A stretch of DNA of 23,851 bases, taken from the IMG/VR virus record IMGVR_UViG_3300036800_000538, positions 1 through 23,851 of that record. One strand, 5' to 3'. Within the stretch, counting starts at the first letter, position 1; each line of letters starts with the position of its first letter. The notes under the pieces were generated by a model. The model ran no database searches. It was not told where the DNA came from and worked only from the letters and a program-made list of their open reading frames with translations. This stretch comes from a virus. Shown piece by piece: positions 1,118 to 23,035 of this stretch. The position numbers and the translations under genes are program-made.

Positions 1118-2344
1118 ATGGCCAAAGGCTATGAAGCTTCTGTATTGTTTGAAGAGAATTACAATGCCCGTGCTCACGTTGTGATCAACCAGGGCGGAAG
1201 CAGTTCCGGCAAAACAACGGCCATCATGCAAGTACTATTTACGTTGGCTTGCGAACAAACGCAACAGGTTATCACAGTAACCGGCCAGGATACGCCAAAC
1301 CTGAAATCGGGTGTTTTGAGAGATGCGTTGAAAATATATAAAGGCTCGAAAACGCTCATGGCAGCTATAAAAACATACAACAAATCAGAGCGCGTCTTTG
1401 AGTTTCATACTGGCAGCGTGATCGAGTTCAAAAGCTATGCAGATGCCCAGGACGCTAAGTCTGGGAAGCGCGATTACCTGTTTGTAAACGAAGCCAACGG
1501 CATCAGCTGGGATGTTTACAGCGAACTGGCCCTGCGCACGCGCAAGAGAGTGTTCATCGATTATAACCCTAATGCTGATTTTTGGGTACACGAACATTTG
1601 ATGGGCAAGCCCGGTGTCCAGCTCATCATATCCGACCACAGGCATAATCCATTTGTTGATAAAGACCAGAGAATCAAAATTGAATCGCTGAAAGAAACCG
1701 ATAAAGAGCGCTGGAAAGTATACGCACGCGGTTTGACGGGGAAAATTGACGGATTGGTGCTGAATAACTGGCGAATTTGTGAAGGGATACCGGCACGTGC
1801 GAAATTGATCGCCGCCGGACTCGACTTCGGCTATTCCAATGACCCAACGGGCTGTATAGTCGTCTATAAGCAAAATGGCCAGTTGTGGATCGAAGAACTG
1901 ATCTATGAAACCGGCCTAACAAACCCGGATATTTCAGGCAGACTCGAAGCAGCAGGGCTGAATAAAAATACAGAGATCATTGCCGATAGTGCCGAGCCCA
2001 AATCCATAGAAGAATTGAGGCGCCTGGGCTGGCGAATTACACCTGCACGAAAGGGCCCTGATAGCGTAAGATTATCTATCGATATTCTGAAAAGATACAA
2101 GCTGAACATCACCCGGACCAGCATCAATTTATTGGATGAATTAAAAAACTACAAATGGAAAAAGGCGCGAACAGGAAGGATATTGAACCAGCCTTCAGAT
2201 GATTGGAATCACTTGATAGATCCTTTAAGATATATTGCATTAAATAAACTAAAAATCAATATCTTAGCTAAGTCGAAAGTTAAATTTCCGTTCGTCCCTC
2301 AGCCGGCAGCGCATGGTTTGTTTGAAGAAATAATTGGCAATTAA
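1118..2344 (+). CDS. terL: Terminase large subunit
   Basis: ATP-driven DNA packaging motor and headful/cos nuclease, 408 residues, of the PBSX-like Terminase_3 type. The N-terminal ATPase has Walker A GGSSSGKT (residues 26-33) and Walker B YLFVNEAN (about 120-127, Glu125 catalytic). The C-terminal RNase H-like nuclease shows the three expected acidic sites: LDFGYSNDP (Asp236), IIADSAEPK (Asp290) and HLIDPLRY (Asp368). Length is normal for the family. The ATG at 1118 lies in an A/T-rich leader with no Shine-Dalgarno sequence, as expected for Bacteroidetes. It follows the small subunit after the interposed antisense lipoprotein gene and is followed by a 71-nt gap before the tail chaperone gene. 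Confidence 0.95.
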   Translation: MAKGYEASVLFEENYNARAHVVINQGGSSSGKTTAIMQVLFTLACEQTQQVITVTGQDTPNLKSGVLRDALKIYKGSKTLMAAIKTYNKSERVFEFHTGSVIEFKSYADAQDAKSGKRDYLFVNEANGISWDVYSELALRTRKRVFIDYNPNADFWVHEHLMGKPGVQLIISDHRHNPFVDKDQRIKIESLKETDKERWKVYARGLTGKIDGLVLNNWRICEGIPARAKLIAAGLDFGYSNDPTGCIVVYKQNGQLWIEELIYETGLTNPDISGRLEAAGLNKNTEIIADSAEPKSIEELRRLGWRITPARKGPDSVRLSIDILKRYKLNITRTSINLLDELKNYKWKKARTGRILNQPSDDWNHLIDPLRYIALNKLKINILAKSKVKFPFVPQPAAHGLFEEIIGN

Positions 2345-2415: not shown

Positions 2416-3117
2416 ATGATAGAAAAAACATTAAAAACAACCGACGGCAAGATCAGGGTGCGGATACCTACCCTGCTCAACGAGCTTACTTTGGGCCAGA
2501 TGATGGCCATGCAGGGAAAACCTAACCTCGATGATCTTGATGCTATCAGTATTCTTTCAGGTATACCGAAGGGCGACCTGCATTCCGTAAAAAACTTTGA
2601 GGATATTCTCACTTTTGGCGACTACGTGAATTCACTCGCGAACCAGATCACATACCTTTATCAAAGTGATATGATCCCAAATCGCATTACTTTCACTATC
2701 GATGATAAAAAAGTGGTAGTAAATGTGATCCGCAACCTTTCGATAGAACCCGCCGGGGCTTTTCTCGCGGCGAGAGACATCATTGCCGACGAGATCAACG
2801 AACATATCAACCTCTATGGCGAAGAAGATTGGCAGGATCATTTCCTGCCTTCACTTAAAGCCTGCTGCCAGGTACTGGCACATTACTTCTTCTGCCGCGT
2901 TACCGGGAAAAGGTACGACGAATATGAAGCGGAAGAATTTTGCGAGGAAGTAAAAAAATTGAAGGTAACGGAGGCTCTGCCTGTTGCCCGGCATTTTTTT
3001 ACCTGTTATCCCAACTTATTGAAACAGAGAATCGGCTTCTTGCGGCAGCTCCGACAGCGCTGGAGAAAAAGGCTGGTATCCAGGCGTTTGAGAAATTCAA
3101 ATATATTAACACAATAA
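2416..3117 (+). CDS. Tail assembly chaperone, short (G-like) form
   Basis: Zero-frame product of 233 residues. I read it as the G-like tail assembly chaperone that binds the tape measure and helps polymerise the tail tube. The N-terminus has the pattern 'vrIPTLLNELTLGQmmamqg...aISILSGIpkgdL', which I associate with chaperone-type proteins of Bacteroidetes phages. The rest is helical and acidic up to residue 195. After the TTTTTTT run the zero-frame tail becomes strongly basic and unusual (RQLRQRWRKRLVSRRLR), which fits a frame normally used only as the end of the shorter product. The gene lies upstream of neck and tape-measure genes. The function rests on synteny and frameshift architecture. 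Confidence 0.6.
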   Translation: MIEKTLKTTDGKIRVRIPTLLNELTLGQMMAMQGKPNLDDLDAISILSGIPKGDLHSVKNFEDILTFGDYVNSLANQITYLYQSDMIPNRITFTIDDKKVVVNVIRNLSIEPAGAFLAARDIIADEINEHINLYGEEDWQDHFLPSLKACCQVLAHYFFCRVTGKRYDEYEAEEFCEEVKKLKVTEALPVARHFFTCYPNLLKQRIGFLRQLRQRWRKRLVSRRLRNSNILTQ

Positions 3118-3260
3118 ACGCCCTCGCCGGAGGCGATATCACCAAATGGGATACTATCGTGGCCATGCCTTATGAGCGTTTGCTTACTAAGCTTTTATTG
3201 AATAAAGCTGAAGTAGAATACCAGCGGCGATATAGTGAATTGCTTAATGCTCAACGTTAA
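2416..3260 (+). CDS. Tail assembly chaperone, -1 frameshift (GT-like) form
   Basis: Predicted 281-residue fusion made when ribosomes slip back one base at 2994-3000. Residues 1-195 are shared with the short form. From base 3000 the frame continues as YLLSQLIETENRLLAAAP and on for 86 residues to the stop at 3258-3260. The downstream frame has no convincing start of its own (its ORF opens with a TTG at 2940 inside the upstream gene), but is rich in normal helical sequence (ALEKKAGIQAFEKF, LTKLLLNKAEVEYQRRY). This matches the G/GT arrangement of lambda-like tail genes, where the fused T domain recruits tail tube subunits. Frame arithmetic and slip site are directly visible; the use of the shift is inferred. 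Confidence 0.6.
2994..3000 (+). other. Slippery heptamer T_TTT_TTT for -1 ribosomal frameshift
   Basis: Seven T residues lie exactly in register: the zero frame reads CAT TTT TTT ACC, so the heptamer fits X_XXY_YYZ and tRNA-Phe can re-pair perfectly after a -1 slip. The next -1 codon is TAC at 3000-3002. I see no strong downstream hairpin or pseudoknot by eye; a weak CTCC/GGAG pairing exists near 3045-3065. Confidence 0.65.
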
Positions 3261-6371: not shown

Positions 6372-6378
6372 GTGGAAA

Positions 6379-6434
6379 GTTGGAAAGTTGTAAGGTTGAA
6401 AAGTTCTTATACCTCAACCTTACAACTTTCCAAC
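6379..6434 (+). repeat. Perfect 21-bp inverted repeat in the leader of the tail-tip gene
   Basis: Arms 6379-6399 and 6414-6434 are exact reverse complements (21/21) around a 14-nt loop. Both arms are made of the word GGAAAGTTG or its complement. The element begins 7 nt after the stop of the upstream gene and ends 23 nt before the ATG at 6458. No T-run follows, so it is not a typical terminator. It belongs to the intercistronic hairpin series seen through this window. Confidence 0.9.
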
Positions 6435-6457
6435 CTTGCAACATTCCAACAAAAAAC

Positions 6458-8527
6458 ATGAACCAACTCCAACTGTACATTAACGATCAGCTCGTCGACC
6501 TGGACGACGATTCGCCTATAGCGCTCACGTTCCAGATCAACAACCTGGCCGAAGTACAAAACCAGCAAGGCAATACCAGCAACCAGTTCAAGCTGCCGCT
6601 TACACAACGGAATAGAAGAATATTCGGCTTCCCGAACGATGTGGCCTTTACCACTAATGCTCCTTACCAGCAATATCCCGCCAAATTAGTACAGGACGGC
6701 CTCGAGATCGTTCCTTATGGAATCGCCGAACTCAATCAGATAGACCAGGATACCGCAAATGTCACCGTGCTTTCGGGTAATGTGGACTTTTTCGATGCGA
6801 TCGACGGCAAATTATATGACATGGGCGATAGCACAAGTCAATGGAGTAATTACGGCAAAAGCCTGGTATGGCTGCCTTACGATCATGTGTGGAACGTTCA
6901 AAATGCCGCGTATTCCCAAACCAAAACCGAAGGCTGGATTTGGCCGGTAGTTGATTATGGTATGATAAGCAACTCGGATTATTCGACACCCATTGATGTG
7001 CACTACCAGCGGCCGGGATTCTTCATCAAAACAGCGGTCGATCTGCTGCTTAAATCGGCAGGTTATAAGGGCGCAGGGTCGTTGCTTAGTGATCCCTTAT
7101 ATCCAAAACTCATTTGCCAGTTCGCCAATGATTCATTCGATCACGGAACAGATGTACAGAACAATGTGGCTTATAAAAGCATTACCGTGCAAACCGGCCA
7201 AAATTTCACCCGGTCGCATCCAACTGTCGATGAAAATATCGGATCGACCCCATTCAGCCTTGTTATATCCGACACCAGCCACCATTACAATCCCGCGGTG
7301 AACGGCTACTTTGTATCCGAGATCACGAGCGTTACAGCATCTATCGCATTTGAGCTATCGTTTACCTCAACTAATCCTTCACGCGATTCGGATAGATCGT
7401 CCAAAATATCTATACAGATCCGCTTATATGACAATGCTGCCCAGCCGGACAGCGATGGCCAGGTATTGGCCGGGACCACTGTTGACTATGCCGCCCGGGG
7501 GACCGCAAATACCATTTCATTAACCAATCAAGCTGTATCGTTTGACCAGGTATTACAACCCGGTCAGGGCATTAAGATCACATACGAGTTTACCGGTTAC
7601 ACCGGCGGCACGTTCACGCTGAATTGCGGCGCCACGTTCAACATCCAAAATAAAGTGCAGGAGGTTCAATACGGTCAAATGATCCAGTGTGAGCGTATCT
7701 TTCCGGACATATCGCAAAAGGACCTGTTAAAGGATATCCTTCAGCGGTTCGGCATTATTTGCCAAACTGACAATGCGAACCGAACGATCAGTTTCAATTC
7801 GTTACGCGATATTGTCAATAACATCCCTATAGCAAAAGACTGGAGCAATAAATGTATTGATCAGGGGAAGCAGATCGCTTTTCAGCTCGGAAATTACGGG
7901 CAGGTAAATTATATGAAATGCAAGGAGGATGATGGCGTGTTACCACTTGATTTTGCCAATTCGCAGATCAATATCGCCGACACGACACTGCAAGCCACTA
8001 ACGATCTTTTCCAAAGTCAGTTCGCACCAACGCTAAACCGGCCGTTTTATGGCGGCACTATAGCCCAAATCCTGAAAACAGACCCAAAAAGCGACGACAA
8101 TGAATTCACCGTAGGCACGCAACCCCGCCTGCTTGTGGATCAAAAGTTCGACCTAAGAACAATAGACAAGACTGTTACTTTTAATGATGGTAACACGGCT
8201 AATAATATCGTAATAAACGACTGGATATCCGCCCCGTATTTTTACAAACCGGATGGCGAATACAATTTGTGTTTTTCTGATATGCCATCGAACAATGGCA
8301 AAAAGCAGCCTGGAGTGCAAACAAAATATTATGCTGAATTTCAAAAAGTGCTTACACAAAGCAAAAAGCTAACCCGGTATACTTTGCTTACACCACGAGA
8401 TATTCTGGAACTGGATCTGATGATTCCGGTGTATATCCAACAGGACAACGCTTATTTCTATATCAACAAAATTGACAGCTGGCGGAAAGGACAGCCTTGT
8501 AAAGTGGAATTGATAAAATTTGGATAA
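6458..8527 (+). CDS. Tail tip / baseplate hub-like protein
   Basis: A 689-residue virion protein. The open frame extends upstream to a TTG at 6380, but that part is translated hairpin leader; ATG 6458 after AAAAAAC gives MNQLQLYINDQLVDLDDDSP, a sensible start. Residues 30-75 (NNLAEVQNQQGNTSNQFKLP) and the C-terminal 'LLTPRDILELDLMIPVYIQQDNAYFYINKIDSW' resemble tail-tip/hub proteins recurring next to tape-measure genes in Bacteroidetes phages. There are many beta strands and a 'FPDISQKDLLKDILQRFGI' segment. No signal peptide. The gene abuts the tape-measure gene, supporting a place at the distal tail. Confidence 0.55.
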   Translation: MNQLQLYINDQLVDLDDDSPIALTFQINNLAEVQNQQGNTSNQFKLPLTQRNRRIFGFPNDVAFTTNAPYQQYPAKLVQDGLEIVPYGIAELNQIDQDTANVTVLSGNVDFFDAIDGKLYDMGDSTSQWSNYGKSLVWLPYDHVWNVQNAAYSQTKTEGWIWPVVDYGMISNSDYSTPIDVHYQRPGFFIKTAVDLLLKSAGYKGAGSLLSDPLYPKLICQFANDSFDHGTDVQNNVAYKSITVQTGQNFTRSHPTVDENIGSTPFSLVISDTSHHYNPAVNGYFVSEITSVTASIAFELSFTSTNPSRDSDRSSKISIQIRLYDNAAQPDSDGQVLAGTTVDYAARGTANTISLTNQAVSFDQVLQPGQGIKITYEFTGYTGGTFTLNCGATFNIQNKVQEVQYGQMIQCERIFPDISQKDLLKDILQRFGIICQTDNANRTISFNSLRDIVNNIPIAKDWSNKCIDQGKQIAFQLGNYGQVNYMKCKEDDGVLPLDFANSQINIADTTLQATNDLFQSQFAPTLNRPFYGGTIAQILKTDPKSDDNEFTVGTQPRLLVDQKFDLRTIDKTVTFNDGNTANNIVINDWISAPYFYKPDGEYNLCFSDMPSNNGKKQPGVQTKYYAEFQKVLTQSKKLTRYTLLTPRDILELDLMIPVYIQQDNAYFYINKIDSWRKGQPCKVELIKFG

Positions 8528-8554
8528 ACATTATGCCATTTGGCATTTTATTCA

Positions 8555-8562
8555 TATATTTG
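8555..8562 (+). promoter_or_regulatory. TATATTTG -7-like element before the tape-measure gene
   Basis: TATATTTG matches the Bacteroidetes -7 consensus TAnnTTTG exactly, 44 nt before the ATG at 8607. No TTG lies at the right distance upstream, so this is half a promoter at best. A 6-bp palindromic pair (8533-8538 with 8541-8546) lies just upstream. Confidence 0.25.
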
Positions 8563-8606
8563 AACCTCCCTCACTACAAACATCAACTTATAAACTCAAT
8601 CTTATC

Positions 8607-9764
8607 ATGGCAGACGACATTAATAAAAAAATCACCATCGACGTACAAGTAAATTCCGATGGGCTTCAGCAAATAAATAAATATTCGGGAGCCGTAACCG
8701 ATCTTGGAGCTTCTGTTGGCAATTTCTCAAAGGCTTTATCAAAGGCTCTAAATGATATGACAGCAGTAAATCAAGGCACTGCAAAGGCTGCTACAGCTAT
8801 CGGCGCCGGTATAAAAGCTGCAACTGACGCCGCAACCAAAGCAGAAGAAGCCAAATCAAAAACAGCAATTGGTACAGCTATACAAACTGCCGGAAAAATT
8901 CTAAGCATCCGACGGATATTAGCAAAATCGACTAAAACGTTAGATGACAAGACCAGGGCAGATCAGTATAAAGCCGAATTGGACAACGTTCAAAAAATAT
9001 CCGATTCAACCTTCAGCATAATAACCAAAGGCATCGACGGGCGGCGGGATGCAGAAGTAGCAGCCATGGAGCAAACGAGGAAAAATATCGATCAGAATCA
9101 AAGTCTAAGCGCTGCGGATAAAAAAAAGGCGGAGCAAAAGGTCTATAATGATGAATACCAGGTAAAACTGAAGGCGTTCAAACAGGATCAGAAAGCTAAC
9201 ATCGCACAGGCCGTTATGAACGGCGCACTGGCAGTTACCAAAGCCGAAGCTGAGTTGGGTCCGGTTGCCGGCACTATAGCGCTCGCAGCAATAGCAGCGC
9301 AAACCGCTGCACAGATTGCGACCATCAAAGCGCAGCAACCTCCTGTACTTCAAACAGCCGCAAAGGGAGGTTACTTTAAATCAGACGGCAAAGGCGCGAT
9401 CCTTCCCGGATACAGTAAAAATGATAATGTCAACGCCTATATACGTTCAGGCGAGGCCGTCGTAGTATCCGAGGCCATGCGCGACCCGTGGGCCCGAAAC
9501 CTGGTAAGCGCAATAAATGTGGCCTACGGCGGCCGCGATTTCTCGGTGCCCCCCTTTTCGAGGGGCTACGCGGTGGGCGGCATCTTTACGGACGGCGGAA
9601 ATGCGAACCGCTATTACAATCAGCCAATGAATGATAACAAGAACCTGGCTAATACCATAGCTTACCAGATGATCAATAATTTTCCGCCTGTGTATGTGGA
9701 TGTCAAAGACATCAATAATCAGCAGAATATCCTGGCGCAAACAGTTAATAGGGTTAACCTGTAA
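8607..9764 (+). CDS. Short tape measure-like tail protein
   Basis: A 385-residue protein from ATG 8607; an upstream TTG at 8520 would overlap the previous gene and adds an unlikely N-terminus. The first 190 residues are helical and Ala/Lys/Gln-rich (SKALSKALNDMTAVNQGTAK), compatible with coiled coil. Residues about 199-243 form an Ala/Ile-rich hydrophobic helix region (GTIALAAIAAQTAAQIATIK). Then comes 'AAKGGYFKSDGKGAILPGYSKNDNVNAYIRSGEAVV', the typical C-terminal tape-measure pattern (GG...G...P...NDNV.A.l..GE.vv). If it is the only tape measure, the tail would be short. Following the tail-tip gene is compatible with this job. Confidence 0.6.
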   Translation: MADDINKKITIDVQVNSDGLQQINKYSGAVTDLGASVGNFSKALSKALNDMTAVNQGTAKAATAIGAGIKAATDAATKAEEAKSKTAIGTAIQTAGKILSIRRILAKSTKTLDDKTRADQYKAELDNVQKISDSTFSIITKGIDGRRDAEVAAMEQTRKNIDQNQSLSAADKKKAEQKVYNDEYQVKLKAFKQDQKANIAQAVMNGALAVTKAEAELGPVAGTIALAAIAAQTAAQIATIKAQQPPVLQTAAKGGYFKSDGKGAILPGYSKNDNVNAYIRSGEAVVVSEAMRDPWARNLVSAINVAYGGRDFSVPPFSRGYAVGGIFTDGGNANRYYNQPMNDNKNLANTIAYQMINNFPPVYVDVKDINNQQNILAQTVNRVNL

Positions 9765-13570: not shown

Positions 13571-14779
13571 ATGGCTCAATTTACATTTACCAACAATACC
13601 TATGCCGGCGAAGCGCTGGCCGGGTTTATGGCCAGCACGCTGCTCGAAGCTGATTCAGTGAAACGCGGACTGCTGACCGTTATCAACGACGTCAAATCGC
13701 GCAAGGTTATCCTTGATGTGGACGACGACGTGGTGCTGCAGGACCCGTCCGGCATCTTCGCCGACCAGGGCACCACGGCTTTACAAAACGAAAGCTACCT
13801 TGACCCCGTAGTTTACGAATTTATGAAACAGGAACAATGGGACAAACTCGTACAATCATGGGAAGCCCAAAGCCTAAAACCGGGCGCGTTTATGGATTAC
13901 GAAGGCATTGTCGACCTGTCCGATTTTATGGTACAGCGTTACCTCACCAAGATCCAGATCGCTAACGAACGCCTGTACTGGCTGGGCAAATCGGCAACTA
14001 AAGAAGCCACGTTTACAGCATCGTTCGCCGGACTGCTCCCATCCATCGCCGCAGCATCTGGTGTCTACAAAGTGGGTTTGGCCAAACCGGCTACTTCCAT
14101 GTCGGCAACCGCCATCGACGCGACCGGGGTTGTGACTGTATCCGATACCTCGACACTTGCAGACGGCGATGTCGTGACCATCACCGCGGTAACCGGCAGC
14201 AGCAAAGACACAACAAACGGCTCACCAGGTATCAATGTTCAGGGCCAGTCCTATTTCATCCAGGTGCTGAGCTCTACCACTTTCAAGCTGACCCGCAATT
14301 ACAATGAGATCAATACCCGTAAAGCTGCAACCTTCAGCGGAACGGCTACGGTCGCGACCGTAAGCTACATTAACGCGAGCAACGTTTTGCAGGTAATCGG
14401 CAGCGTTTATGCTCAGCTCGACCCGGCCGATCGCGCACAGGATGATTTCAACCTGCAAATTCCTCTGCATGTGGGCTACGCCTATGCGCAAGCGCAGGCT
14501 AACAAGGCTACCAACGTGATCAACGCCTTTACCGATCCAAAGAAAATGGATTTCCTCGGCGTTCCCCTGCAACTGATGAACCACTGGCAGGCAAACACTA
14601 TCCTGGGTGCACGTTCATCCAACCTGTTCCTCGGTGTCGACCTGTTGGGCGATGCTTCAGAGCTTTCAACCGTCTACATGAAACCTTACACCAACGACGA
14701 TGTAGTGCGTATGAAGGCTCGGATGAAAGCTGCCGTAAACTTCAAGTTCGCGAACGAGATCTTCTACCTGAGCGCGTAG
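13571..14779 (+). CDS. Major capsid protein
   Basis: A 402-residue protein directly downstream of the maturation protease, the expected place for the major head subunit. N-terminal arm MAQFTFTNNTYAGEALAGF, an alpha-rich P-domain-like stretch (VYEFMKQEQWDKLVQSWEAQ and IVDLSDFMVQRYLTKIQIANERLYWLG), and a C-terminal part 'YTNDDVVRMKARMKAAVNFKFANEIFYLSA' typical of capsid proteins binding their neighbours. Residues about 178-270 form a Thr/Ser/Val-rich beta domain ('TSTLADGDVVTITAVTG', 'YFIQVLSSTTFKLT') that looks like an inserted surface domain. High GC and regular codon use suit a highly expressed gene. The name rests on context and overall pattern. Confidence 0.75.
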   Translation: MAQFTFTNNTYAGEALAGFMASTLLEADSVKRGLLTVINDVKSRKVILDVDDDVVLQDPSGIFADQGTTALQNESYLDPVVYEFMKQEQWDKLVQSWEAQSLKPGAFMDYEGIVDLSDFMVQRYLTKIQIANERLYWLGKSATKEATFTASFAGLLPSIAAASGVYKVGLAKPATSMSATAIDATGVVTVSDTSTLADGDVVTITAVTGSSKDTTNGSPGINVQGQSYFIQVLSSTTFKLTRNYNEINTRKAATFSGTATVATVSYINASNVLQVIGSVYAQLDPADRAQDDFNLQIPLHVGYAYAQAQANKATNVINAFTDPKKMDFLGVPLQLMNHWQANTILGARSSNLFLGVDLLGDASELSTVYMKPYTNDDVVRMKARMKAAVNFKFANEIFYLSA

Positions 14780-14796
14780 GCGCAGTTGATTGGGTT
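14772..14796 (+). repeat. Junction repeat at the capsid gene end (copy 1)
   Basis: A 25-nt segment that spans the capsid stop codon and matches 16847-16871 at the portal stop codon at 23 of 25 positions. It contains the last coding bases, the stop and the start of the GTTGATT word array. Confidence 0.8.
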
Positions 14797-14886
14797 GATT
14801 GAGTTTATTGGTTGATTAAGTTCAATCTCATAACTCCTTCAACTTAATCCAACTCAATCACCCTATTCAACTTAATCAACTCAAAA
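14781..14886 (+). repeat. GTTGATT/AATCAAC intercistronic hairpin leader, copy 1
   Basis: Between the capsid stop and ATG 14887. The purine-rich half repeats GTTGATT(G/A)(A/G)GTT; the pyrimidine-rich half repeats AACTTAATC(C)AAC. A perfect 12-bp pair (14811-14822 with 14869-14880) and a second alternative pairing (14811-14822 with AACTTAATCC at 14841) are possible, so several registers could fold. No T-run follows. Confidence 0.8.
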
Positions 14887-15471
14887 ATGTCTATTTACAA
14901 CAAAATAAACGCCGGGTTCAGCCTGGGTACAGGCTCCCCCATCACCGCGGGCATCGAGGATGTGATCTACGTCTTCAACCAGGACGAGATCGCCATCACC
15001 TATGATCCTTCGAACCCGCTCATCGTCACCGGCCTGGCGGCCGTTGGCAGCGCTAAGGTCTACAAGTTCGAAGGCACCAATAACAGCTTCAGCACCATGT
15101 CCAAACTGGCCAAAACATCGGTCGGTCCGAGATATACCGAGGAGATCGATTTCAATATTGCCGGCTTGTCAGTCGATATCAAAACGCAGCTGATGGCTAT
15201 GGGCTACGGTCGTGTAAAGGCTATCGCTGTAAACAATTATAATTCCAGCGATTCAGCTATCGAATTGTTTGGCGCTGTGAACGGCCTGATCCTCACGGAC
15301 GCAGAACGCAACACATCCGATGAAACTATCGACGGCGGTTACAAGCTAAAACTAACCAACCCCGATAAACTCCGGGAGCCTTACCCACCCCGCGCAATAT
15401 CCATCGCCCCCGAAACCGGCAGCGCAACTTACGTGAGCACCCTCGCAGCGATCGAAGCATTGGTCGGGTAG
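14887..15471 (+). CDS. Major tail tube-like protein (putative)
   Basis: A 194-residue beta-rich virion protein. Features such as 'GSAKVYKFEGTNNSFSTMSKLAKTS', 'GPRYTEEIDFNIAGLSVDIKTQLMAMGYGRVKAIAVNN' and 'AIELFGAVNGLILTD....DETIDGGYKLKLTNPDK' resemble Bacteroides-phage tail tube proteins as I remember them: an 'F.G..nS' strand, a helix carrying K and an 'elFG..nGL' hairpin. It lies between capsid and portal genes, an unusual place for a tube gene, so a capsid decoration or head-associated role remains possible. High-GC codon use matches the capsid gene and suggests high expression. Confidence 0.5.
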   Translation: MSIYNKINAGFSLGTGSPITAGIEDVIYVFNQDEIAITYDPSNPLIVTGLAAVGSAKVYKFEGTNNSFSTMSKLAKTSVGPRYTEEIDFNIAGLSVDIKTQLMAMGYGRVKAIAVNNYNSSDSAIELFGAVNGLILTDAERNTSDETIDGGYKLKLTNPDKLREPYPPRAISIAPETGSATYVSTLAAIEALVG

Positions 15472-15480
15472 CCGGTGAGC

Positions 15481-15558
15481 AGTTGATTAAGTTAGATTAG
15501 GTTGATTGAGTTTACGCAACCTATTCAACTTAATCCAACCTAATCAACCCAATCAACT
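15481..15558 (+). repeat. GTTGATT/AATCAAC intercistronic hairpin leader, copy 2
   Basis: Arms 15481-15513 and 15526-15558 pair over about 28 positions with two mismatches, one G-U wobble and two single-base bulges; the loop is short. It lies between the tube-like gene stop (15471) and the portal ATG (15571). The words are the same as in copies 1 and 3. Confidence 0.85.
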
Positions 15559-15570
15559 AAATATTAACTA

Positions 15571-16854: not shown

Positions 16855-16871
16855 GCGCAATTGATTGGGTT
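16847..16871 (+). repeat. Junction repeat at the portal gene end (copy 2)
   Basis: Matches 14772-14796 at 23 of 25 positions across the stop codon, including GCGCGTARGCGC and the start of the TTGATTGGGTT array. Confidence 0.8.
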
Positions 16872-16962
16872 AAGTGGTTGATTAAGTTTCAATCCATATA
16901 CAATTCAACTCAAGCCAACCTAATCAACTTATTCAACCTAATCCAACTCAATCAACTTAAAA
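16855..16962 (+). repeat. GTTGATT/AATCAAC intercistronic hairpin leader, copy 3
   Basis: Between the portal stop and ATG 16963. The purine-rich half (TTGATTGGGTT, GGTTGATTAAGTT) can pair with CAACCTAATCAACTTATTCAACC-type words ahead of the ATG; the best local pairing is 12 of 13. It shares words and layout with 14781-14886 and 15481-15558. Confidence 0.75.
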
Positions 16963-17583
16963 ATGAACGTTTACCTTATCGACCAGATCACATTCCAGAA
17001 TTACGAGGACCTGTCGCTCAATATCAAATCCGACCGGATCAAATTCTTCGTCAAAAAAGCGCAGGAGCTCGACCTGAAGCCATTCCTCGGGCATGCTTTA
17101 TATTATGACTTTATCCAATACTTCAACACCGACGGTACGCTGAAAGACGAAACGCCGCAGCCTTATAAGGATCTGCTCAACGGCTCTGAATACCTCGACC
17201 GTTACGGTCATGTCGTCCTGTATGAAGGTCTGTTGCCTATGCTGGTGTATTTCACCTTCGCGCGATTTATCGAAGCCGATGCCGTGTATTATACCGCGAC
17301 AGGCCCGGTGATCAAACACCACGACAATGCCGATCCGCTGACGCCGCAGGAAGTAGCCAAACTGGTGCAGCAACACCGCAGCGTAGCGAATGCCCACGCC
17401 AATGAGGTCGAAAAATTCCTCCGCGATAATAAGGCTGATCTCCCGCTCTGGAACTATAACCCGAAAAACCGGAGCAGCCGCCAGGCCGGGCCGCGCATCC
17501 GTAGCGTCGACAAAACCATTTTCAATTATCCCGGCGACGATTACGCGGGTAATTATTTACCGATCAATGAATTCTTAAACTAA
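16963..17583 (+). CDS. Head-tail adaptor-like protein (DUF6712-type)
   Basis: A 206-residue helical protein. The N-terminus 'LIDQITFQNYEDLSLNIKSDRIKFFVKKAQELDLKPFLGHALYYDFIQYF' matches what I know of the DUF6712 adaptor type in Bacteroidetes phages (..Y.dls.ni....i...i..AQ.lDl.p.LG...y..l..). The later part is helical with a Lys/Asn-rich stretch and ends 'GDDYAGNYLPINEFLN'. It immediately follows the portal, as connector proteins do. The fibre gene starts on its last stop base (TAATG), so the two are translationally coupled. Confidence 0.7.
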   Translation: MNVYLIDQITFQNYEDLSLNIKSDRIKFFVKKAQELDLKPFLGHALYYDFIQYFNTDGTLKDETPQPYKDLLNGSEYLDRYGHVVLYEGLLPMLVYFTFARFIEADAVYYTATGPVIKHHDNADPLTPQEVAKLVQQHRSVANAHANEVEKFLRDNKADLPLWNYNPKNRSSRQAGPRIRSVDKTIFNYPGDDYAGNYLPINEFLN

Positions 17584-22569: not shown

Positions 22570-23035
22570 CCACGGCATTAATGCCATCAAAAACTTTGAA
22601 GGGCTAAGCCTGCCGGCCTATCGTGATGTGGCCGGCGTATGGACCATCGGCTACGGCTCAACCCGTTACCACGATGGCCACCCTGTAAAACCCGGCGACC
22701 GGCTGGCTAACGAACAACAGGCAAGCGCCCTGTTCAGCAATACGCTCGGCCAATATGAAGAAGCTGTGAACCAGTATGTAAAAGTGCCGCTCGCACAAAA
22801 CCAGTTCGATGCGCTGGTATCCTTCACCTACAACGTGGGCACAGGAGGTCTGAGAGAATCTACTCTGCTTAAAAAGCTGAATGAGAAAGATTATGCCGGC
22901 GCGGCCGACCAGTTCCTGGTTTGGAACAAGATCACCGATCCGAAAACCGGTGAAAAAGTAGCCTGCAAAACACTCGTCGACCGGCGCAATGAAGAACGCC
23001 AATTATTTCTTTCAAATTCATCCGCTATAGCATGA
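22556..23035 (+). CDS. Endolysin, GH24 (T4-type) lysozyme
   Basis: A 159-residue muramidase cleaving peptidoglycan glycan chains. The catalytic triad region is clear: Glu15 in NFEGL, Asp24 in YRDVAGVW and Thr30 in WTIGYGS, matching the E-D-T triad of T4 lysozyme. A 'FDALVSFTYNVGTGGLRESTLLKKLN' segment and 'LVDRRNEERQLFL' end are also typical. No signal sequence is seen, so release probably needs the holin. Downstream ATG 23032 overlaps its stop by four bases (ATGA). Confidence 0.95.
   Translation: MKLSDHGINAIKNFEGLSLPAYRDVAGVWTIGYGSTRYHDGHPVKPGDRLANEQQASALFSNTLGQYEEAVNQYVKVPLAQNQFDALVSFTYNVGTGGLRESTLLKKLNEKDYAGAADQFLVWNKITDPKTGEKVACKTLVDRRNEERQLFLSNSSAIA

Follow-up and report, generated by a model that had tools for sequence, protein, structure and literature searches.

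We conclude, with a probability of roughly 0.8 for the explanation as a whole, that one gene of this viral sequence encodes two tail-assembly factors from one start, by means of a programmed -1 ribosomal frameshift at U_UUU_UUU. The window analyzed here is the whole IMG/VR record IMGVR_UViG_3300036800_000538 (23,851 bases), and its relevant features are the following.

1118..2344, + strand: terminase large subunit (TerL; phrog_2, E 5e-33; PF17288, E 5e-13), directly upstream of G
2416..3117, + strand: zero-frame product G, an ORF of 233 aa consisting of a 195-aa domain and a 38-aa tail made only without the shift
2952..2958, + strand: second in-register heptamer, A_AAA_AAA, with the same -1 frame; not conserved
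2963..2982, + strand: upstream 5-bp stem-loop with the SD-like GGAGG (2970-2974) in its loop, 19 nt before the heptamer
2994..3000, + strand: slippery heptamer T_TTT_TTT, in register and at the aligned place in 132 of 132 non-redundant homologues
3000..3260, + strand: -1 frame T domain, 86 codons and a stop codon (3258-3260)
3001..3117, + strand: zero-frame tail downstream of the slip site, with the first ~18 codons judged dual-coding and selected
8520..9764, + strand: tape-measure protein (TMP), C-terminal match (phrog_1506, E 9e-8); 414 aa

Around the slip site, the zero frame of the ORF at 2416-3117 reads CGG CAT TTT TTT ACC, which bears out the proposal of an earlier note on this DNA that the T7 run is in exact slippery register (X_XXY_YYZ). 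After a -1 slip, reading restarts at 3000 (TAC) and continues through the 86-codon frame that the same note had described; this frame is open up to its stop codon and represents a conserved partner domain. The resulting GT fusion has 281 aa (195 + 86), and at its junction ...HFF is followed by YLLSQLIETENR; the corresponding peptide of the unshifted G is ...HFFTCYPNLLK. It should be noted that T7 runs occur in the window at the chance level (17 seen versus 16.7 expected) and that T7/A7 runs are not enriched; thus, the weight is carried by the register and by conservation. The A_AAA_AAA heptamer was considered as the true slip site and rejected, because no more than 48 of the 130 unique homologues have an in-register heptamer upstream.

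Scans of viral and genome collections yielded 237 loci with both parts, which correspond to 132 non-redundant genes (<93% nucleotide identity); this set includes isolates, MAGs and viral contigs, and reaches down to ~40% protein identity. In all of the first 19 homologues (58-86% identity in the best segment), the heptamer was found at the same nucleotide of the gene, with the T domain in the -1 frame. Comparison of the complete set shows the heptamer TTTTTTT in register at the aligned place in every one of the 132 genes, and the -1 relation of G and T in 129 of 130 unique genes, the single exception (L201) having a broken or degenerate G. The conservation of the heptamer and of both frames, which it had been suggested to look for, was thus found, and no homologue without the slip site was seen. 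The codon before TTT TTT is CAT (105 homologues), TAT (24), TGT (2) or AGT (1). The three T-ending codons of the slip site are therefore fixed; elsewhere in the same genes TTT accounts for 72% of Phe, CAT for 59% of His and TAT for 51% of Tyr codons, and no other conserved Phe column fixed for TTT was found there. Among 17 homologues, the mean column identity is 76% for the 195-aa G domain and 84% for the T domain. On these comparative grounds, we regard it as very likely that the frameshift is real and programmed.

We then consider selection in the two frames. In a synonymous-constraint scan of 20 element genes, the top peak lies at G codons 180-190 (robust z 7.5); T codons 7-9 are also elevated, and the constraint downstream of the slip site is back to background at residue 217. 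As a null model for the tail, synonymous codons of the T frame were shuffled, and zero-frame stop codons and identity were predicted. Stop codons at tail codons 3, 6, 7 and 14 are expected in 24, 63, 30 and 29% of sequences, respectively, compared to 0-1% observed. The median tail predicted by the shuffles is 5 codons, compared to 38 observed, and tails of at least 33 codons are found in 93% of sequences (8% expected). The amino acid identity of tail residues 1-10 and 11-18 is 0.58 and 0.48, compared to 0.30 and 0.23 expected under the null model. The position entropies reveal a raised zero-frame wobble and a lowered -1 wobble, i.e., the pattern left by two coding frames, and a tail of the type LNYPNLSKPKTGFWHRL is retained in distant homologues. 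The stop avoidance, the tail identity and the entropy signature indicate that the overlap is dual-coding, with ~18 zero-frame tail residues under selection, and that the unshifted G is a genuine protein with an end of its own; the synonymous constraint downstream of the slip site is attributed to this dual-coding tail rather than to RNA structure. The tail had been described as arginine-rich, which is correct (9 of 38 residues), and its Arg-rich rest beyond ~18 residues is scarcely constrained; the implied meaninglessness is wrong for the first ~18 residues. The median dN/dS is 0.20 for G and 0.16 for T. Judging from the sequences, both products appear to be real and used, G with 233 aa and GT with 281 aa.

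In the mechanism that we propose, most ribosomes would keep the frame and produce G, whose selected tail peptide is of the type LNYPNLSKPKTGFW.RL. In a minority, both tRNA-Phe, in the P and A sites, would re-pair with UUU one base further back, and these ribosomes would produce GT, with the helical T domain in place of the tail peptide.

The gene organization suggests that G and GT are probably tail-assembly chaperones. The tape measure, protease, capsid and portal genes are located on the same strand as G/GT, in the order TerL-G/GT-...-TMP. The earlier note had placed the pair upstream of the tape measure, which holds for the direction but not for the distance: the tape measure is ~5.3 kb and four genes downstream, and G/GT directly follows TerL. 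As far as the genes are assigned, the order does not look like the classical MTP-G/GT-TMP; G/GT adjoins TerL, an unusual position, and no gene was recognized as that of the major tail protein. Little resemblance to the lambda G/T proteins had been noted there; Pfam gave no match for either the G or the T part, and PHROG gave weak matches only, to families without chaperone annotation. The AlphaFold model of G (pLDDT 82.5) is mixed alpha/beta, and the predicted model of T has four helices (pLDDT 76, with a pTM of only 0.44). Searches of the PDB with the model of G retrieved no meaningful match, which does not make the fold new, and the best structure matches are unnamed phage proteins. A 240-aa uncultured phage protein, A0A6J5N3F3, is matched structurally by both G (E 2e-4) and T (E 2e-3, 38% identity). 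The T profile also resembles the C-terminus of gene 3 of Elizabethkingia phage TCUEAP1 (QGZ15838.1, hypothetical protein; hhalign E 4e-9), which is likewise located directly after TerL and has its C-terminal 75 residues homologous to T; unlike the gene studied here, it is one unbroken ORF of 180 aa without a frameshift, and its N-terminal part was not aligned with G. These two matches suggest that the fused form seems to occur elsewhere as one ORF.

The arrangement is similar to that of gpG/gpGT of phage lambda (Xu, Hendrix and Duda 2004; reviewed in PMC5009743) in having overlapping frames, the first of which is left by a -1 shift close to its end, a short product and a longer fusion, and a location upstream of the tape measure on the same strand. 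It differs in the heptamer (U_UUU_UUU), in the lack of profile similarity, in the position next to TerL, and in the unshifted product, which has a 38-codon tail with the first ~18 residues apparently selected, in a dual-coding overlap. We infer a chaperone function like that of the lambda proteins. The alternative that survives best is that the frameshift is real and its products are not tail chaperones, e.g., that they are packaging-linked factors. The conserved position directly after TerL, here and in TCUEAP1, and the absence of a chaperone profile match for both parts are consistent with this alternative; however, a -1 shift that fuses a smaller domain to a larger one, upstream of the tape-measure gene, is the hallmark of tail chaperones, and no packaging gene is known to use such a fusion. 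Products other than tail chaperones are rather unlikely, in our view.

The region upstream of the slip site contains a putative stimulatory signal for the proposed ribosomal slip. GGAGG is found 19 nt before the heptamer in 108 homologues, where it is part of the loop closed by a 5-bp stem (GGGUA/UGCCC); 90 of these 108 have the stem with every one of its five pairs. At the outer pair, the window has A-U and 93 homologues have G-C. The constrained third positions coincide with the stem and GGAGG, and the third position between them (-18) is free to vary. Approximately 24 distant homologues have neither the stem-loop nor GGAGG, and most of these have T9 runs. A conserved downstream stem or pseudoknot was not found by RNAalifold on the 132 sequences, covariation analysis (MI/APC), a stem scan or a single fold. 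A candidate pairing of GGGTAAC (-31) with GTTATCC (+11) was rejected, since a C at position +12, found in 38% of sequences, disrupts a central pair.

A -1 tandem slip with an upstream SD-like element is also known for E. coli dnaX (SD + A_AAA_AAG). In dnaX the SD spacing is ~10 nt and a hairpin is located downstream, whereas the spacing here is 19 nt and there is no conserved downstream helix. The +1 frameshift of prfB (RF2) in Bacteroidia similarly has an SD-like sequence upstream of the shift site, and this sequence is present in all Sphingobacteriales examined (PMC8710568), suggesting that mRNA-rRNA pairing during elongation is possible there; conversely, prfB is a host gene, with a +1 shift at a stop codon and a short spacing. 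In E. coli, U_UUU_UUU is reported to be less shifty than A_AAA_AAG (PMC5009743), a point against the proposed mechanism, as is the lack of a conserved downstream structure; a weaker slip site would fit a minor GT product. The PRFect paper (PMC10274946) does not mention Bacteroidota. The mechanism is of a known kind, and what is new is this form of it.

These signals also bear on transcriptional slippage, in which RNA polymerase would slip on the T run, and mRNAs with one U fewer or two more would encode GT conventionally. The protein pair would be identical, and 41 of the 132 homologues do have 8 (15 homologues) or 9 (26 homologues) T; nevertheless, 91 of 132 have only T7, which is short for efficient transcriptional slippage in bacteria. 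Moreover, this process needs no X_XXY_YYZ register, yet the register is kept in every homologue, and the upstream stem with GGAGG and the third-position constraint are left without a role. We consider slippage of the polymerase to be improbable, and by far the greater part of our confidence in a real, programmed frameshift goes to a shift made by the ribosome.

It is also conceivable that there are two separate genes, the second being translated from its own start. A TTG is present in the open -1 frame of the window, and the second ORF from it would span 2940-3260. However, the open -1 stretch preceding T is without ATG in 127 of 132 homologues and without ATG, GTG or TTG in 114, and it may comprise as few as 2 codons. 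Most homologues thus lack an independent start for T, and a separately started second frame, which the earlier note had also raised, is very improbable. A frameshift mutation, a pseudogene or a sequencing error in the T run can be dismissed even though the element is decayed in some genomes, since the same arrangement is found in isolates, MAGs and viral contigs (132 of 132), both frames are under purifying selection, and the isolate genomes exclude an error of sequencing. The programmed ribosomal frameshift remains our preferred reading.

Several rearrangements of the element were observed. Internal deletions of ~20 kb with one junction are present in six Mucilaginibacter genomes (L046, L049, L053 and L058, G001-G004; L309 and L310, G082 and G084), where GGAGGCnCTGCCCATnGC runs directly into codon 27 of the gene at 23032 (window ~2987 to ~23110), with only a few nucleotides of homology at the ends. 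G001-G004 sit beside relatives without this deletion in both the host and the element trees, so the deletions look independent. The ends ~7 nt before the heptamer in these six genomes gave rise to the idea that the slip-site constraint reflects a DNA recombination site; this was rejected, because the partner breakpoints of the deletions (TerL codon 100, MCP 88, spn 27) are without such constraint. TerL codon ~100 is joined to MCP codon 88 in three genomes (L305-L307; G017, G048, G062) and to the last tape-measure codons in L312-L314 (G094, G069, G129), at nearly the same place each time. In L308 (G080; 8207 and ~18350), a ~10 kb segment with ends in g4305 (codon ~540) and in the MCP gene (codon 94) is inverted; both halves of the two genes are retained, and the inversion may therefore be recent or reversible. 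The element is largely intact in isolates such as those represented by G006, G039 and G144.

Other features of the window were also recorded. The tape measure has 414 aa, compared to 717-1022 aa in single-ORF relatives, and a large middle part seems to be missing; if so, the tail would be much shorter or the element defective. The second strongest synonymous constraint (robust z 6.8) is at the 5' end (codons 7-20) of the capsid candidate gene at 13571-14776. Intergenic repeats of the type CAACTTAATC/GATTAAGTTG, direct and inverted, are located between structural genes (14795-14943, 15481-15562 and 16861-16970). A 27-nt inverted repeat (6373-6440; 93% complementary, 14 nt between the arms) lies at the start of a 715-aa ORF, and the true start of this ORF may be an ATG further downstream.

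The gene order TerS-TerL-G/GT-g3327-(g3783)-g4305-g6380-TMP-protease-MCP-g14887-portal-g16963 recurs in Mucilaginibacter chromosomes, as a phage-like structural cluster of 20-25 kb that is kept at one host locus across the genus. G is present in 109 of 149 Mucilaginibacter genomes, nearly always as a single copy; in a family sample beyond the genus set, only three genomes (G188, G195 and G243) match, all weakly. The upstream genes are common to 19 of 20 compared regions. One host gene (f14), found in 114 of 149 genomes including element-free ones, is at most 16 kb from G (median 3.9 kb) in all 75 genomes that have both on one contig. Of 12 genes, 11 have distances that are correlated with those of rpoB (Mantel r 0.39-0.75, p 0.001 to 0.009); the correlation is not significant for TerS (r 0.18, p 0.077). 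Of 21 splits, 8 are common to the element and rpoB trees, compared to 0.24 by chance, and 7 of 14 well-supported rpoB splits are in conflict with the element tree. The capsid candidate has a median dN/dS of 0.08; the other genes have values of 0.11-0.24, except for TerS, with 0.46 (3 pairs only). MCP is found in 77 of 149 genomes, and capsid genes have been lost in many species. No integration or replication genes were seen among the scanned window genes and the scanned flank genes of G117, G008 and G001. Many genomes have a CI/S24-type repressor (f15) close to the cluster. In G117, G144 and G007 it is situated immediately upstream of TerS and is divergent from the small f16, of unknown family (L221:2249-2941, minus strand; L225 near 6847-8313), and this stretch is a possible control region of the element.

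These observations fit a phage-derived, vertically inherited and domesticated element. Like gene transfer agents (GTAs), e.g., RcGTA (Rhodogtaviriformidae) and BaGTA (PMC9662315), the host element is a caudovirus structural cluster with apparent vertical inheritance, nearly always in single copy, at a fixed locus and under purifying selection. Unlike GTAs, it has a CI/S24-like repressor nearby and has lost capsid genes in many species. This loss, and the recurrence of internal deletions at identical nucleotides, speak against the vertically inherited, GTA-like interpretation. That the element is a GTA-like domesticated phage particle, kept at one locus genus-wide with its dual-coding -1 frameshift preserved by selection, is a tentative and somewhat doubtful suggestion. 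The open-access literature searched contained no GTA reports for Bacteroidota and no relevant paper that deals with both Mucilaginibacter and gene transfer agents.

The proposed frameshift would add a family of frameshifted tail-assembly genes without a match to chaperone profiles, in a phylum in which ribosomes ignore SD sequences at initiation. More than 100 natural variants are on hand for testing U_UUU_UUU frameshifting and the element with the SD-like sequence in its loop. The dual-coding overlap suggests that the tail of the unshifted product matters. The host element also provides a candidate for a domesticated phage particle in a soil genus of Bacteroidota that can be cultivated, and this particle may be a gene transfer agent.
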